A stretch of DNA of 64,000 nt from Epilithonimonas hungarica. GTDB lineage: Bacteria > Bacteroidota > Bacteroidia > Flavobacteriales > Weeksellaceae. The stretch is taken from the NCBI RefSeq assembly GCF_900102265.1, contig NZ_FNBH01000003.1:62001-126000 (forward strand), read 5' to 3'. The translations under genes and the position numbers were made by a program. The notes beneath the pieces were generated by a model. That model was not told where the DNA came from and made no database searches. It saw only the letters and a program-made list of their open reading frames with translations. Shown here piece after piece: positions 27,853 through 45,446 of the stretch (position 1 is the stretch's first letter; each line of letters starts with the position of its first letter).

Positions 27853-27922
27853 TTAGATATTAGATTTAGACATTAGATATTAGACTTTATTAGTCTGGTT
27901 TCTGAAATCTGAAATCTAAATC
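27853..27922. repeat. degenerate heptamer repeat in rpsR-rplI spacer
   Basis: On the minus strand the tract reads as near-heptamers TCTAATA, TCTAATG, TCTAAA, TCTAATA, TCTAAAA, preceded by two TTTCAGA units. TTAGATATTAGA occurs twice (27853 and 27873). No coding potential. Confidence 0.6.
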
Positions 27923-27952
27923 AAGTTAGAATTAATTAATTTATTCAGCAAC

Positions 27953-41422: not shown

Positions 41423-41553
41423 AATTCTATCGCATTTTAATTTGGTGCAAAGGTAAAGTTTTCAGAGATATTTAGCAGTTTTAGAATATAGAAAATACAG
41501 ATGACCTAATTAATTTTTTAAAATATTGATCTAAAAATCTTTTGGTTGAATTT

Positions 41554-41581
41554 TTGATTCCCTAGAATCTTAGTATTTTTG
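41554..41581 (+). promoter_or_regulatory. Bacteroidota promoter for aguB
   Basis: TTG (41554-41556) and TATTTTTG (41574-41581) with a 17-base spacer, ending 17 bases before ATG 41599. Confidence 0.6.
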
Positions 41582-41598
41582 TAAAAAATTTAGATTAA

Positions 41599-42474
41599 AT
41601 GTCAAAAGTTAAAATCGGAACCGTTCAGATGTCTTGTGTTGCCGACAAACAAGCAAATTTGAACAAAGCCATTGAAAAAATAAAAGAAGCCGCCGCAAAA
41701 GGTGCTCAAATCATTTGTTTACAGGAGCTCTTTACATCATTATATTTTTGTGATGTAGAAGATTATGACAATTTCGAGTTGGCTGAACCTATTCCGGGTC
41801 CTTCAACAGATGCACTTTCTCCAGTTGCGAAGGAATTGGGAGTTGTAATCATTGCTTCGTTGTTCGAGAAAAGAGCACAGGGACTTTATCATAATACAAC
41901 GGCTGTTATCGATGCAGATGGGACCTATCTTGGGAAATACCGAAAAATGCATATTCCGGATGACCCGGCATTTTATGAGAAATTTTATTTCACGCCAGGA
42001 GATCTGGGCTATAAAGTTTTCCCCACCAAATTTGGGAAAGTTGGAGTGTTGATTTGTTGGGACCAATGGTATCCGGAAGCTTCAAGAATTACAGCATTGA
42101 TGGGAGCAGACGTCATGTTCTATCCAACAGCAATTGGCTGGGCAACAGACCAAGATGAAGAAACCAATCAAGATCAATATAATGCTTGGCAGACGATTCA
42201 GCGTTCGCACGCAGTTGCGAATGGTGTTCCTGTAGTTTCTGTAAACAGAGTGGGTTTTGAACAGGACGGTGCTATGAAATTCTGGGGAGGAAGTTTTGTA
42301 ACGAATGCTCAAGGAAAATTGTTATATCTGGCTTCTCACGATAAAGAGGAAGTTGTTGTAACAGAAGTTGATCTTGCTCAAACAGATTATATGAGAAAGC
42401 ACTGGCCATTCTTGAGAGATAGAAGAATCGACACTTATTCGCCGATCACAAAACGTTTTATTGACGAAAACTAA
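41599..42474 (+). CDS. aguB: N-carbamoylputrescine amidase
   Basis: A 291-residue nitrilase-superfamily amidase converting N-carbamoylputrescine to putrescine, CO2 and ammonia. The Glu-Lys-Cys triad is visible: Glu43 in LQELFTSLYF, Lys116 in KYRKMHIPD, Cys153 in VLICWDQWYPE. The segment FYEKFYFTPGD is typical of the AguB/plant-type enzyme. The assignment is strengthened by agmatine deiminase downstream. The two genes are normally adjacent; here a four-helix-bundle cassette separates them. Confidence 0.95.
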   Translation: MSKVKIGTVQMSCVADKQANLNKAIEKIKEAAAKGAQIICLQELFTSLYFCDVEDYDNFELAEPIPGPSTDALSPVAKELGVVIIASLFEKRAQGLYHNTTAVIDADGTYLGKYRKMHIPDDPAFYEKFYFTPGDLGYKVFPTKFGKVGVLICWDQWYPEASRITALMGADVMFYPTAIGWATDQDEETNQDQYNAWQTIQRSHAVANGVPVVSVNRVGFEQDGAMKFWGGSFVTNAQGKLLYLASHDKEEVVVTEVDLAQTDYMRKHWPFLRDRRIDTYSPITKRFIDEN

Positions 42475-42487
42475 TTGTCAGAGGATA

Positions 42488-42519
42488 GATGTCCGATGTC
42501 GGAAGATTTTAAATTCGGA
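42488..42519 (+). repeat. left inverted repeat of four-helix cassette
   Basis: A 32-base arm beginning GATGTCCGATGTCGGAAGAT and ending TTCGGA. It pairs with 42938-42968 at 29 of 32 positions (two substitutions, one single-base indel). It begins 14 bases after the aguB stop. Confidence 0.85.
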
Positions 42520-42567
42520 AACAATATAATTTAATAATAAAAATAGATATTCTGACTTCAAAATATT

Positions 42568-42930
42568 ATGGCTTTTAAATTTGAAAAATTACGGGTTTGG
42601 CAAAAAGCTTTGGAATTATCAACATTAGTTCATAATATCACAAGAGAATTTCCAAAGGAAGAACTGTTTATTCTTACTTCTCAAATTAAAAGAGCAGCAG
42701 ATTCTATTAATTTGAATATTGCAGAAGGTTCTACAGGGCAATCAAATAAAGAATTCATCAAGTTTTTAAGATATTCTTTACGTTCTAACATAGAGGTAGT
42801 AAGTTGTATTTTCATAGCAAGAGAAAGAAAAATTATTTCAAAAGAAAATTTTAATAAAATATATGAGATGAGCGAAGAGATTTTGGCTATGATTACTGCT
42901 CTCATCAAAAAATTAGATAATGAACAATAA
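42568..42930 (+). CDS. four-helix-bundle protein (23S rRNA IVS-protein / Avd-like family)
   Basis: A 120-residue all-helical protein. The TIGR02436 signature is clear: MAFKFEKLRVWQKALELS at the start, TSQIKRAADSINLNIAEGS, KEFIKFLRYSLRSNIEV. Relatives are encoded in intervening sequences of 23S rRNA genes, as Avd accessory proteins of diversity-generating retroelements, and as stand-alone genes. It forms pentameric bundles and binds nucleic acid in characterised cases. Here it is alone, with no reverse transcriptase nearby. It lies between inverted repeats inside the aguB-aguA unit, and its last 11 bases overlap the aguA start. Confidence 0.92.
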   Translation: MAFKFEKLRVWQKALELSTLVHNITREFPKEELFILTSQIKRAADSINLNIAEGSTGQSNKEFIKFLRYSLRSNIEVVSCIFIARERKIISKENFNKIYEMSEEILAMITALIKKLDNEQ

Positions 42931-44008
42931 TAATAACTCCGAATTACAATCTTCTGACATCGGACATCAGACCTTGGACTTGGAAAACTATGTTTTCCCA
43001 GCAGAATGGGAAGAACACGAAGCAACCTGGCTGTCTTGGCCTCACAAGGAGGAATCCTGGCCGGAAAGAATCGATTTGATCTATCCTGCTTATGCCAAAT
43101 TTATTGCTGAATTGACAAAAGGTGAATTTGTTTGTATCAATGTGAAAGACCAGGAAATGCAGGCTTTTGCAATGGAACACATTTCCAAAGCTGGCGCAGA
43201 TATATCAAAAGTTGAGTTTTATTTCAATGAAACTAATGACGCTTGGTGCAGAGACCACGGTCCGGCATTTTTAGTGAATAAAAATGGAGAAGAACCAAAG
43301 AAAATCATTGTTGATTGGGGATTCAATGCGTGGGGAGGAAAATACCCGCCATTCGAATTGGATGATGTGATCCCGACTAAGATTGCTGAAGAAAAAAATC
43401 TTCCGGTTCTTTATCCTGGAATTATTATGGAAGGCGGTTCCGTTGAATTCAACGGTGCTGGAACAGTTTTAACTTCCAGATCTTGTCTTCTTAATAAAAA
43501 CAGAAATCCGCATCTTTCTCAGGAAGAAGTGGAAGAATTCCTGAAAAAATATTACGGACAAAAACAGGTTCTTTGGGTAGATGACGGAATTGTAGGCGAT
43601 GATACAGACGGTCATGTGGATGATACAATCCGTTTCGTGAATGAAAATACAGTTCTGACAGTTATCGAAGATGATCCTGAAGATGACAATTATGAGATCC
43701 TTCAAACCAACCTTCGTCAGTTAAAAGAAATGACTTTGTTAAATGGCGAAAAACTCAATATCATCAAGCTTCCGATGCCAGAAGCAGTTTATTGCGACGG
43801 ACAAAGATTACCGGCTTCTTATGCTAATTTTTACATCGCAAACAAGTCGGTGATTGTTCCGACTTACAGATGTGACAAAGATGCGCTGGCTTTGGAAATT
43901 ATCCAGGAATGTTTTCCGGATAGGGAAGTTGTTGGAATAGATTCTACCGACATTATCTGGGGATTGGGAAGTTTTCATTGTTTAAGTCAGCAAGAGCCTT
44001 TGGTATAG
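42920..44008 (+). CDS. aguA: agmatine deiminase
   Basis: A 362-residue enzyme turning agmatine into N-carbamoylputrescine. The deiminase fold shows FPAEWEEHEATWLSWPH, then WCRDHGPAF, EGGSVEFNGAGTVLT, GHVDDTIRF and catalytic Cys354 in WGLGSFHCLSQQEP. The ATG at 42920 lies inside the end of the four-helix gene, and codons 7-17 are read through the right inverted repeat. Family homology begins only at about residue 25 (FPAEWEE), and no in-frame ATG is closer; TTG codons at 42974 and 42980 are alternatives. So the present start region is probably derived from the inserted cassette. Confidence 0.95.
   Translation: MNNNNNSELQSSDIGHQTLDLENYVFPAEWEEHEATWLSWPHKEESWPERIDLIYPAYAKFIAELTKGEFVCINVKDQEMQAFAMEHISKAGADISKVEFYFNETNDAWCRDHGPAFLVNKNGEEPKKIIVDWGFNAWGGKYPPFELDDVIPTKIAEEKNLPVLYPGIIMEGGSVEFNGAGTVLTSRSCLLNKNRNPHLSQEEVEEFLKKYYGQKQVLWVDDGIVGDDTDGHVDDTIRFVNENTVLTVIEDDPEDDNYEILQTNLRQLKEMTLLNGEKLNIIKLPMPEAVYCDGQRLPASYANFYIANKSVIVPTYRCDKDALALEIIQECFPDREVVGIDSTDIIWGLGSFHCLSQQEPLV
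42938..42968 (+). repeat. right inverted repeat of four-helix cassette
   Basis: The 31-base complement of 42488-42519, located inside the 5' end of aguA. It reads as degenerate heptamers continuing past the arm: TCTGACA, TCGGACA, TCAGACC, TTGGACT. Confidence 0.85.
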
Positions 44009-44014
44009 ATTTAG

Positions 44015-44036
44015 CCTGCAGAACTGCAGGTTTTTT
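44015..44036 (+). terminator. rho-independent terminator after aguA
   Basis: Perfect stem CCTGCAG / CTGCAGG with a 2-base AA gap, then T6. It begins 7 bases after the stop and 13 bases before the MFS start. Confidence 0.85.
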
Positions 44037-44048
44037 ATTTTGATTATT

Positions 44049-45446
44049 ATGAGTGACAATATAACTACTGAATCAGTCAAAAAATTCCTTCCTTTGATCT
44101 TGGGAACGGCGATTTTTATGCAGATGCTGGATTCTACGATTTTGAATACCTCTTTGCCATCCATAGCCAGAGATTTACAGGAATCGCCTTTGGATATGCA
44201 GAATGCCATCATCAGTTATGTATTGACTTTGGCTTTGTTTATGCCTGTTAGCGGATTTTTGGCAGACAAATTCGGAACCAAAAAAATATTCATTCTTTCG
44301 CTGGTCTTGTTTTCGTTAGGTTCATTGTTCTGCTCATTATCTCAAAACCTGACCGAATTGGTGATTTCCAGAGTTATTCAGGGTGTTGGCGGAAGTTTGA
44401 TGACGCCGGTTGGGAAGCTGGCATTGATCCGGGCCTTCAATAAAAATGAACTTCTGAAAGCTATGAATTTCGCTATCGTTCCTGCACTGATTGGTCCGGT
44501 AATGGGTCCTGTAGTTGGTGGATATATGGTCGATTATCTGAGCTGGCATTGGATTTTTTTGATTAATATCCCAATAGGAATTCTAGGAATTGGTCTCAGT
44601 TTAAAATATATGCCGAATTACAGGTCGCCTGTCATCGACTTTGATTTGAAGGGATTTTTGATTTTCGCATTGGCATCATTATTACTGTCGAGCGCATTGG
44701 AAATATTAGGAAATGCACAAAATCTCACACCTGTTCTGATGATATTTTCTTTAGGATTTCTGATGCTTTACTTCTACTACAAACATGCTAAAACAGATAA
44801 TAATCCAATTTTTCCACTGAATCTTTTTAAAGTTCGGACTTTCCGAGTTGGGATTTTAGGAAATCTGGCAACAAGACTTGGAATCAGTTCCATTCCGCTT
44901 TTGGTTCCGCTAATGATCCAGATCGCTTATGGACAATCGGCGCTGACTTCGGGCTGGATTATTGCACCAATGGCGCTTACGGCGATGTTTGGAAAATCTT
45001 TTGTGATTGGGATTTTGGATAGGTTTGGTTATCGCAAAACTTTGATGGTCAATACATTTATCATCGGGATTTTAATTTGTTGCTTAGCAATCCCAAGTGT
45101 TCAAAGTTCGATTTACTGGTTTGTGCCAATTTTGTTGATTCTTGGATTTTTTAATTCGATTCAATTTACATCGATGAATACGATTTCCATCGCCGATTTG
45201 CGACCTTATCAAAATAGCAGTGGGAATTCTTTGGTATCAGTAAATCAGCAGTTTGCAATTGGATTCGGGATTGCGTTTGGTCTGATTGTTTTGAAATTGT
45301 TTGAAGGCGATACGACTTTTGTTAAAAATCAAGTGCACACAGCTTTCCGATACACTTTTTTGGTTGTAGGTTTTCTAACGATACTTTCCGGTTTGGTTTT
45401 CCGAAGGCTGAATTTTCGTGACGGTGAGAATATGAAATCGGTTTAA
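44049..45446 (+). CDS. MFS drug exporter, DHA2 (EmrB/QacA) family
   Basis: A 465-residue inner-membrane proton antiporter with about 14 helices. Motifs include FMQMLDSTILNTSLPSIA in helix 1, the motif A loop GFLADKFGTKKIF, RVIQGVGGSLMTPVGK in helix 4 and motif C-like GPVMGPVVGGYM in helix 5. ATG 44049 is used in place of the TTG three codons earlier. It stands alone, without the EmrA-type adaptor or TolC partner, so it probably exports to the periplasm. Substrates unknown. Confidence 0.9.
   Translation: MSDNITTESVKKFLPLILGTAIFMQMLDSTILNTSLPSIARDLQESPLDMQNAIISYVLTLALFMPVSGFLADKFGTKKIFILSLVLFSLGSLFCSLSQNLTELVISRVIQGVGGSLMTPVGKLALIRAFNKNELLKAMNFAIVPALIGPVMGPVVGGYMVDYLSWHWIFLINIPIGILGIGLSLKYMPNYRSPVIDFDLKGFLIFALASLLLSSALEILGNAQNLTPVLMIFSLGFLMLYFYYKHAKTDNNPIFPLNLFKVRTFRVGILGNLATRLGISSIPLLVPLMIQIAYGQSALTSGWIIAPMALTAMFGKSFVIGILDRFGYRKTLMVNTFIIGILICCLAIPSVQSSIYWFVPILLILGFFNSIQFTSMNTISIADLRPYQNSSGNSLVSVNQQFAIGFGIAFGLIVLKLFEGDTTFVKNQVHTAFRYTFLVVGFLTILSGLVFRRLNFRDGENMKSV

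Follow-up and report, generated by a model that had tools for sequence, protein, structure and literature searches.

A probable intervening-sequence-type stem-loop element between aguB and aguA of Epilithonimonas hungarica

Positions 42477-42979 of the window, the 64,000-nucleotide stretch of Epilithonimonas hungarica DNA analysed here, probably form a stem-loop element of the intervening sequence (IVS) type, whose host is a protein operon and not 23S rRNA. The element carries a gene of the 23S rRNA IVP family and separates aguB from aguA. The same layout recurs in dozens of other operon junctions and in several bacterial phyla, so that protein-coding operons, and not rRNA alone, seem to be the home of this insert family. 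The features are as follows.

41599-42474, plus strand: aguB, N-carbamoylputrescine amidase type, the upstream operon gene (ORF call; CN_hydrolase, PF00795, 2e-61)
42477-42519, plus strand: left arm, an inverted array of units of about 7 nt (inverted-repeat search; predicted RNA fold)
42568-42930, plus strand: IVP gene, four-helix-bundle family, 120 aa (ORF call; PF05635, E 5e-35)
42920-44008, plus strand: aguA, agmatine deiminase type (ORF call; PAD_porph match from residue 26)
42920-42930, plus strand: overlap of the IVP end and the aguA start, 11 nt, ATGAACAATAA (ORF coordinates)
42938-42979, plus strand: right arm, 7-nt units GACATCG GACATCA GACCTTG GACTTGG (inverted repeat; lag-7 periodicity)
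27855-27925 (approximate ends), minus strand: ORF-less hairpin with 7-nt units at the rpsR-rplI junction, a second place of the same architecture

The original prediction placed a four-helix-bundle gene between aguB and aguA and framed it by inverted arms. ORF calls, Pfam and the inverted-repeat match agree with this. The protein scores 120.3 bits against PF05635 (curated cut-off, 33.8), and its residues 6-110 align with positions 1-105 of the 106-position profile. Two solved structures, 2gsc and 2rld, are related to it by sequence; the closest named record is the IVP of an Epilithonimonas hominis locus (L131), at 95%. Between the arms the IVP gene is the sole long sense ORF, and an antisense ORF is listed at 42681-43025. 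The ORF list and Pfam give aguB, IVP and aguA as the only ORFs of the locus, so neither a transposase nor a reverse transcriptase is visible, just as predicted. A search of 41500-44100 gave no Rfam match above a gathering score.

Both arms are conspicuous. The left one sets in 2 nt past the aguB stop. Pairing at 29 of 32 positions had been claimed, and an alignment of 42488-42519 with 42938-42968 indeed has 29 matches in 32 columns, the others being 2 mismatches and a single-nucleotide gap. The longest ungapped inverted repeat of the surrounding 3.5 kb is 42477-42512 with 42944-42979 (29/36); with one gap allowed, it extends to 42477-42531 and 42926-42979 (42/55). None of 2000 dinucleotide shuffles reaches the local arm score of 29 (mean 11.7, maximum 21), and the 99th percentile of 411 ordinary genes of the same genome is 28. 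RNA folding predicts a stem that closes the insert, with 29 of 36 left-arm bases paired to the right arm and a duplex energy of -43.5 kcal/mol. By this model the stem is a plausible RNase III substrate. The right arm also has the top lag-7 score of the 64-kb window (4.86; 50-nt pieces in steps of 5).

This anatomy invites comparison with a known element. The available text of a Coxiella study (PMC4990558) describes a 23S IVS of 428-444 nt with a 28-bp stem, an S23p ORF in the loop and cutting by RNase III in vitro; the role of the IVP/S23 protein is described there as unknown. With the ORF-bearing 23S rRNA IVSs of Coxiella and Leptospira (S23p/IVP) the window element shares several features: the protein family; a length of 430-500 nt; an ORF in the loop of a stem formed by complementary ends; and sporadic presence at conserved sites (2 of 23 congeners, with 37 of 78 scan loci at the same junction). 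Unlike these, it lies between aguB and aguA and not in a 16S or 23S rRNA gene, its arms are locus-specific arrays of 7/8-nt units, and its right arm is translated. No rRNA match was found at 20 IVP loci of other taxa, and the neighbours of the examined loci are protein ORFs. Because no examined IVP locus is in rRNA, the case for kinship with the rRNA IVSs is built on the shared protein family and anatomy.

The Avd protein of diversity-generating retroelements is a related four-helix bundle, and the kinship of IVP and Avd is discussed in the available text of PMC10053308. The window IVP reaches E 1e-4 against bAvd, below the cut-off (22.9 bits versus 40). In contrast to Avd, it has no reverse transcriptase ORF beside it; its direct neighbours are the CN_hydrolase and PAD_porph genes.

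The aguA ATG lies inside the IVP end, as predicted, and the right arm is translated within aguA ahead of the PAD_porph match: by coordinates 42938-42979 is codons 7-20, the ungapped arm being printed as codons 9-20. The 11-nt overlap makes translational coupling of the two genes possible. A further part of the original prediction, that the insert supplied the aguA start, fails. By eye, aguA begins with a sequence of this type (ATGAACAAYAATA..) also in relatives that carry a nuclease or membrane-protein gene in place of the IVP. Since genomes with other cargo share the window-like start, the IVP was not its donor. By sequence comparison, the start is native, and the arm lengthened the N-terminus downstream of it. 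Among 37 aguB-aguA loci elsewhere, an in-frame ATG precedes the arm sequence in 16 and the aguA ATG follows the arrays in 12; for the other 9, no in-frame ATG was found. As the aguA ATG precedes the right arm, cleavage within that arm would cost aguA its start codon. If the element were excised as in rRNA, aguA would be damaged at this locus, unless the stem is protected by translation.

In several Bacteroidota families AguA N-termini read as translated 7/8-nt units (FPTSGLSDF, for example), which form a variable segment ahead of the conserved domain. Such 5' ends occur at loci L132-L138, L140, L146, L147, L149, L160, L161, L164 and L182. Arm-encoded N-termini on AguA, and perhaps on other proteins, call for caution in annotation.

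The aguB-aguA junction was read across 23 congeneric genomes. The IVP gene is present in 2 (the window genome and G006), and aguB and aguA adjoin in 11. The remainder carry a DUF1016/YhcG-type nuclease gene (4), a membrane-protein-like gene (3), a metallo-beta-lactamase-like gene (1) or a small ORF (1), and 1 was not readable. The gene thus stands as an insert relative to relatives. Of the empty site expected in relatives, the adjoining genes were found in 11 of 23; none is base-exact, because AguA has a different N-terminus in these 11 genomes. The nuclease genes (L010, L013, L020 and L027; DUF1016/YhcG by Pfam in L013) show no arms by eye. Locus L011 (G002) holds a 244-aa ORF with the motif HSHEDRAGD, which we take to be metallo-beta-lactamase-like.

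Farther afield, the junction is occupied repeatedly. At E <= 1e-35, such an IVP is found in 3 of 296 genomes of the family; the third of these (G193) has it at the aguB-aguA junction as well, where arms can be recognised by eye. The IVP of this third locus (L233) contains one in-frame TAA stop; its arms and aguA overlap are retained. A scan of 84,980 species genomes, biased to the window IVP lineage because it was seeded with the window IVP, provided the 78 loci used here. In 37 of these, from Pedobacter, Chitinophagaceae, Cyclobacteriaceae and other taxa, the gene again separates aguB from aguA, and a one-off insertion is not supported. Repeats accompany the gene in most of these relatives too, contrary to the refuting case named in the original prediction: 7/8-nt periodicity exceeds z 2 at 30 of the 37 loci, and the inverted score lies above the control median at 33. 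In a tree, the 37 IVPs and those of the two congeners occupy one side of a branch, with L155 and L186 as sole additions (support 0.93). As far as the tree goes, one IVP lineage holds the aguB-aguA junction in other Bacteroidota families.

Are such arms a general trait of IVP genes? Three samples were compared: 94 IVP genes of the genus, from 33 operon junctions; the 78 loci elsewhere; and 411 ordinary genes from 464 kb of the window genome. Periodicity of 7 or 8 nt exceeds z 2 at 84 of 94, 65 of 78 and 23 of 411, respectively, and z 3 at 50, 53 and 4. IVP loci are related to each other, and only the per-junction counts reduce this effect of kinship; with one mean per junction, 31 of the 33 genus junctions exceed z 2 and 19 exceed z 3. 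The best autocorrelation lag is 7 in 65 of the genus genes and 8 in 22. None of 188 pieces taken 250-500 nt away reaches z 2.

Unit length is matched between the two arms. In the genus, 40 loci have 7-nt units in both arms and 15 have 8-nt units in both, none is mixed and 39 are unclear; elsewhere the counts are 33, 19, 3 and 23. Where both arms have a clear unit, the lengths agree in 107 of 110 loci (Fisher: genus 8e-14; elsewhere 1e-11; one vote per junction, 1e-5). Complementarity is less uniform. The median inverted score of the 94 genus genes is 20 for their own arms, against 13 for mismatched pairs, for the same-strand control and for the 411 ordinary genes. The 95th percentile of mismatched pairs is passed by 42 of 94 genus genes and 31 of 78 loci elsewhere, no more, and duplex energy passes the 5% tail at 60 of 172 loci. 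That both arms share a unit length while their sequence varies by locus suggests that the stem, not the sequence, is kept.

The window genome has six IVP loci (7 matches, one gene being split). By eye, all six show inverted arms, and these differ in sequence. At C9:250762 the arms are weak (score 15, rank 23 of 94). Five loci lie between co-directional genes; that at C9:50061 is antisense to both neighbours. Across the genus, both neighbours are co-directional for 90 of 94 IVP genes versus 247 of 411 ordinary genes (p 9e-16, related rows uncorrected), and the same holds at 33 of 39 non-agu loci elsewhere. The 33 genus junctions include groES-groEL, trpE-trpG and fadB-thiolase-acd (names by eye).

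How the gene evolves bears on how it travels. IVPs at the same site have a median dN/dS of 0.07 (82 pairs), and the window IVP differs from that of G006 by dN 0.021 and dS 0.327, with dS of 0.78 for aguB and 1.07 for aguA. On these ratios, the protein is under purifying selection. Synonymous divergence was compared in 127 pairs, and the gene that stands out as low is the IVP in 32 (7 junctions), the upstream gene in 1 and the downstream gene in 3; counted per junction, the IVP has the lowest value in 10 of 17 (p 0.03). Third-position GC is 0.23 in the IVP versus 0.38 and 0.39, and such low GC3 also lowers divergence, hence is a partial alternative cause. One pair of loci (L091 and L093) displays what may be the underlying event: identity is 96.6% over the 177 nt at the 3' end of the upstream gene, 98.6% in the IVP and 100% to 11 nt inside the downstream gene, and falls to 87% and 85.5% beyond this block. 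Such a block is as expected for recombination in the flanks. The best reading of these sequences is that species exchange the element at fixed junctions, with recombination in the flanking genes accounting for at least part of the exchange.

Movement between junctions also occurs. Two or more IVPs occur at 18 junction labels; in 12 of these they belong to a single clade, 2 further labels are a single junction that was split, and the remaining 4 contain several lineages. IVPs 73-81% identical are found at different junctions (labels 17_18 and 7_8), and that of L155 is 73-74% identical to aguB-aguA IVPs; therefore the gene relocates. Across truly different genus junctions, mean arm-word similarity is 0.16 at 60-70% IVP identity and 0.07 above 70%, against a base of -0.04, with 4 junction pairs in each class. 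The signal is weak, and the idea that a relocating gene takes its arms along to a new junction was dropped.

Arrays of this type also exist without a gene. The 464-kb scan found 9 separate 7/8-nt arrays at z > 4, one being the window right arm. Four of seven further arrays inspected fold as ORF-less junction hairpins: at rpsR-rplI (in the window), at atpD-atpC, upstream of a lolD-like gene and at C9:161519. Congeners have hairpin-like junctions at atpD-atpC (22 read) and rpsR-rplI (23 read), with units that vary between species groups (by eye). Counting distinct sequences, fold z is below -2 in 11 of 19 and 19 of 23, respectively, and it is so in 5 of 17 IVP-less groES-groEL junctions. Solo junctions match congeneric IVP arms (z at least 5 over 20 shuffles) in 8 of 19 distinct sequences at atpD-atpC, 6 of 23 at rpsR-rplI and 7 of 17 at groES-groEL. 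Half-against-half pairing is dialect-specific in 12 of 19 at atpD-atpC; the result is negative at rpsR-rplI (2/23) and groES-groEL (1/17).

Other junctions vary in their occupants too. The fadB-thiolase junction is bare in 4 cases and holds an IVP in 11 (three arm kinds), RAYT-like palindromes in 7 (5 long, 2 ORFs translated; 2 short) and another gene in 1. Here the Y1_Tnp RAYT-like element is framed by AGCTCCGTAGGAGCG palindromes (L312, L314, L316, L319 and L324; short at L305 and L306). The thiolase-acd junction holds 19 IVPs (three arm kinds) and 4 nuclease-like genes (one translated). These nuclease-type genes (L303, L305, L308 and L309) show no arms by eye. At groES-groEL there are 3 IVPs, 2 short bare junctions and 17 longer ones, part of these with 7-nt units. 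No bare junction among those found could be aligned to an occupied one at single-base level, and no target-site duplication was seen.

Several explanations compete for this pattern. The original prediction, on the whole partly supported, envisaged a cassette, a DNA element bounded by terminal inverted repeats of its own, which an unseen enzyme inserted and which gave aguA a new start. Its patchy presence (2 of 23 congeners, 3 of 296 family genomes at E <= 1e-35), the arms at both ends and the relocation of related IVPs to different junctions would fit. Yet a transposon of this design should carry the same terminal repeats on every copy, and the arms differ between IVP loci of one genome (by eye), so a common terminal repeat for all IVP loci is ruled out. 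Add to this that no transposase lies within the element, no target duplication was seen, the aguA start is native and related IVPs at different junctions hardly share arm words, and the cassette becomes quite unlikely. Somewhat better placed, though still unlikely, is a host regulatory module, in which the stem and the IVP would adjust expression of the downstream gene and selection on the host would maintain both. Purifying selection on the IVP and the 11-nt overlap with aguA speak for it, as do the in-frame ATG upstream of the arm in 16 of 37 aguB-aguA loci elsewhere and the atpD-atpC and rpsR-rplI junctions, which stay hairpin-like across congeners while their sequence changes. A module serving the host is harder to reconcile with occupants that vary freely at aguB-aguA and fadB-thiolase (IVP, nuclease-like gene, RAYT-like element or nothing), or with the presence of the element in junctions of unrelated operons.

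A system like REP/RAYT, in which the IVP disperses in trans hairpins of its own unit dialect, is the least probable of these explanations by our estimate, and a very unlikely one. The IVP is not known to have enzymatic activity. REP/REPIN sequences and their RAYT genes (background in the available text of PMC3733652) do offer parallels: a gene framed by inverted repeats, and kindred repeats at other genomic places, for the most part between co-directional genes. The window dialect, GACNTCNGACNTCNGAC with at most 1 mismatch, has 36 matches at about 18 genome places, against 3 for the reversed control; 13 of these places were inspected, 9 lying between co-directional genes, 1 between divergent genes and 3 inside ORFs; judged by eye, about 4 are clear hairpins with two arms. 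Where the matching IVP is present, genomes have 36 and 51 matches versus a median of 14 (p 0.017, kinship ignored), and for a second dialect the medians are 11 versus 5 (p 0.018, kinship ignored). At fadB-thiolase, moreover, the RAYT-like element occurs with and without its own ORF. However, the dialect counts take in the arms of the IVP locus itself, one dialect is present in all 23 genomes and the other in 22 of 23, and 31-46 matches are reached in genomes that lack the IVP. That solo arrays need an IVP in the same genome is accordingly unsupported. Unlike REP/RAYT, the window element has no RAYT (Y1_Tnp) gene with its repeats, and its units are 7/8-nt periodic. The RAYT-like element (PF01797) is a separate occupant of IVP-type junctions, and Y1_Tnp was found only there, at another junction.

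The IVS-type reading accommodates these observations in the following way. The arms would pair in the polycistronic mRNA, and the IVP would bind its own stem or the DNA of that stem. The 11-nt overlap would couple translation of the IVP to that of aguA and so keep aguA expressed. Recombination in conserved flanking genes would bring the element to the same junction of other strains; moves to new junctions would be rare. A larger proposal is tentative, and we hold it to be doubtful: 7/8-nt-unit hairpins would make up a widespread, undescribed operon-junction class, in which a dedicated four-helix-bundle protein would recognise the hairpins of each dialect and aid their spread or upkeep, and the rRNA IVSs would be the rRNA branch of a larger, mRNA-dwelling family. 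If the family does live largely in protein operons behind matched 7-nt arms, its function becomes testable in ordinary mRNAs.

The available text of PMC4679880 describes TAACTGA-type heptanucleotide arrays in Beggiatoaceae, cyanobacteria and Bacteroidetes. These share with the present arms the 7-nt period, the intergenic position, often near start codons, and a patchy distribution across distant phyla; unlike them, they are described as direct repeats of one unit. The terms S23, four helix and intervening have no occurrence in that paper. In Flavobacterium columnare, a phage-element table in the available text of PMC5524665 places a four-helix-bundle gene between guanylate kinase and nucleotidyltransferase genes. 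Within the accessible portions of the open PMC literature, nothing was found that links IVP/S23 genes to inverted arms of 7-nt units or to operon junctions.

In other taxa, too, the IVP gene recurs at similar junctions (names by eye): a methionine-synthase-like pair at L163, L165 and L170-L172; a phosphatidylserine-synthase-like gene at L162, L169 and L177-L180; and a leuC/leuD-like pair at L206, L207 and L210.
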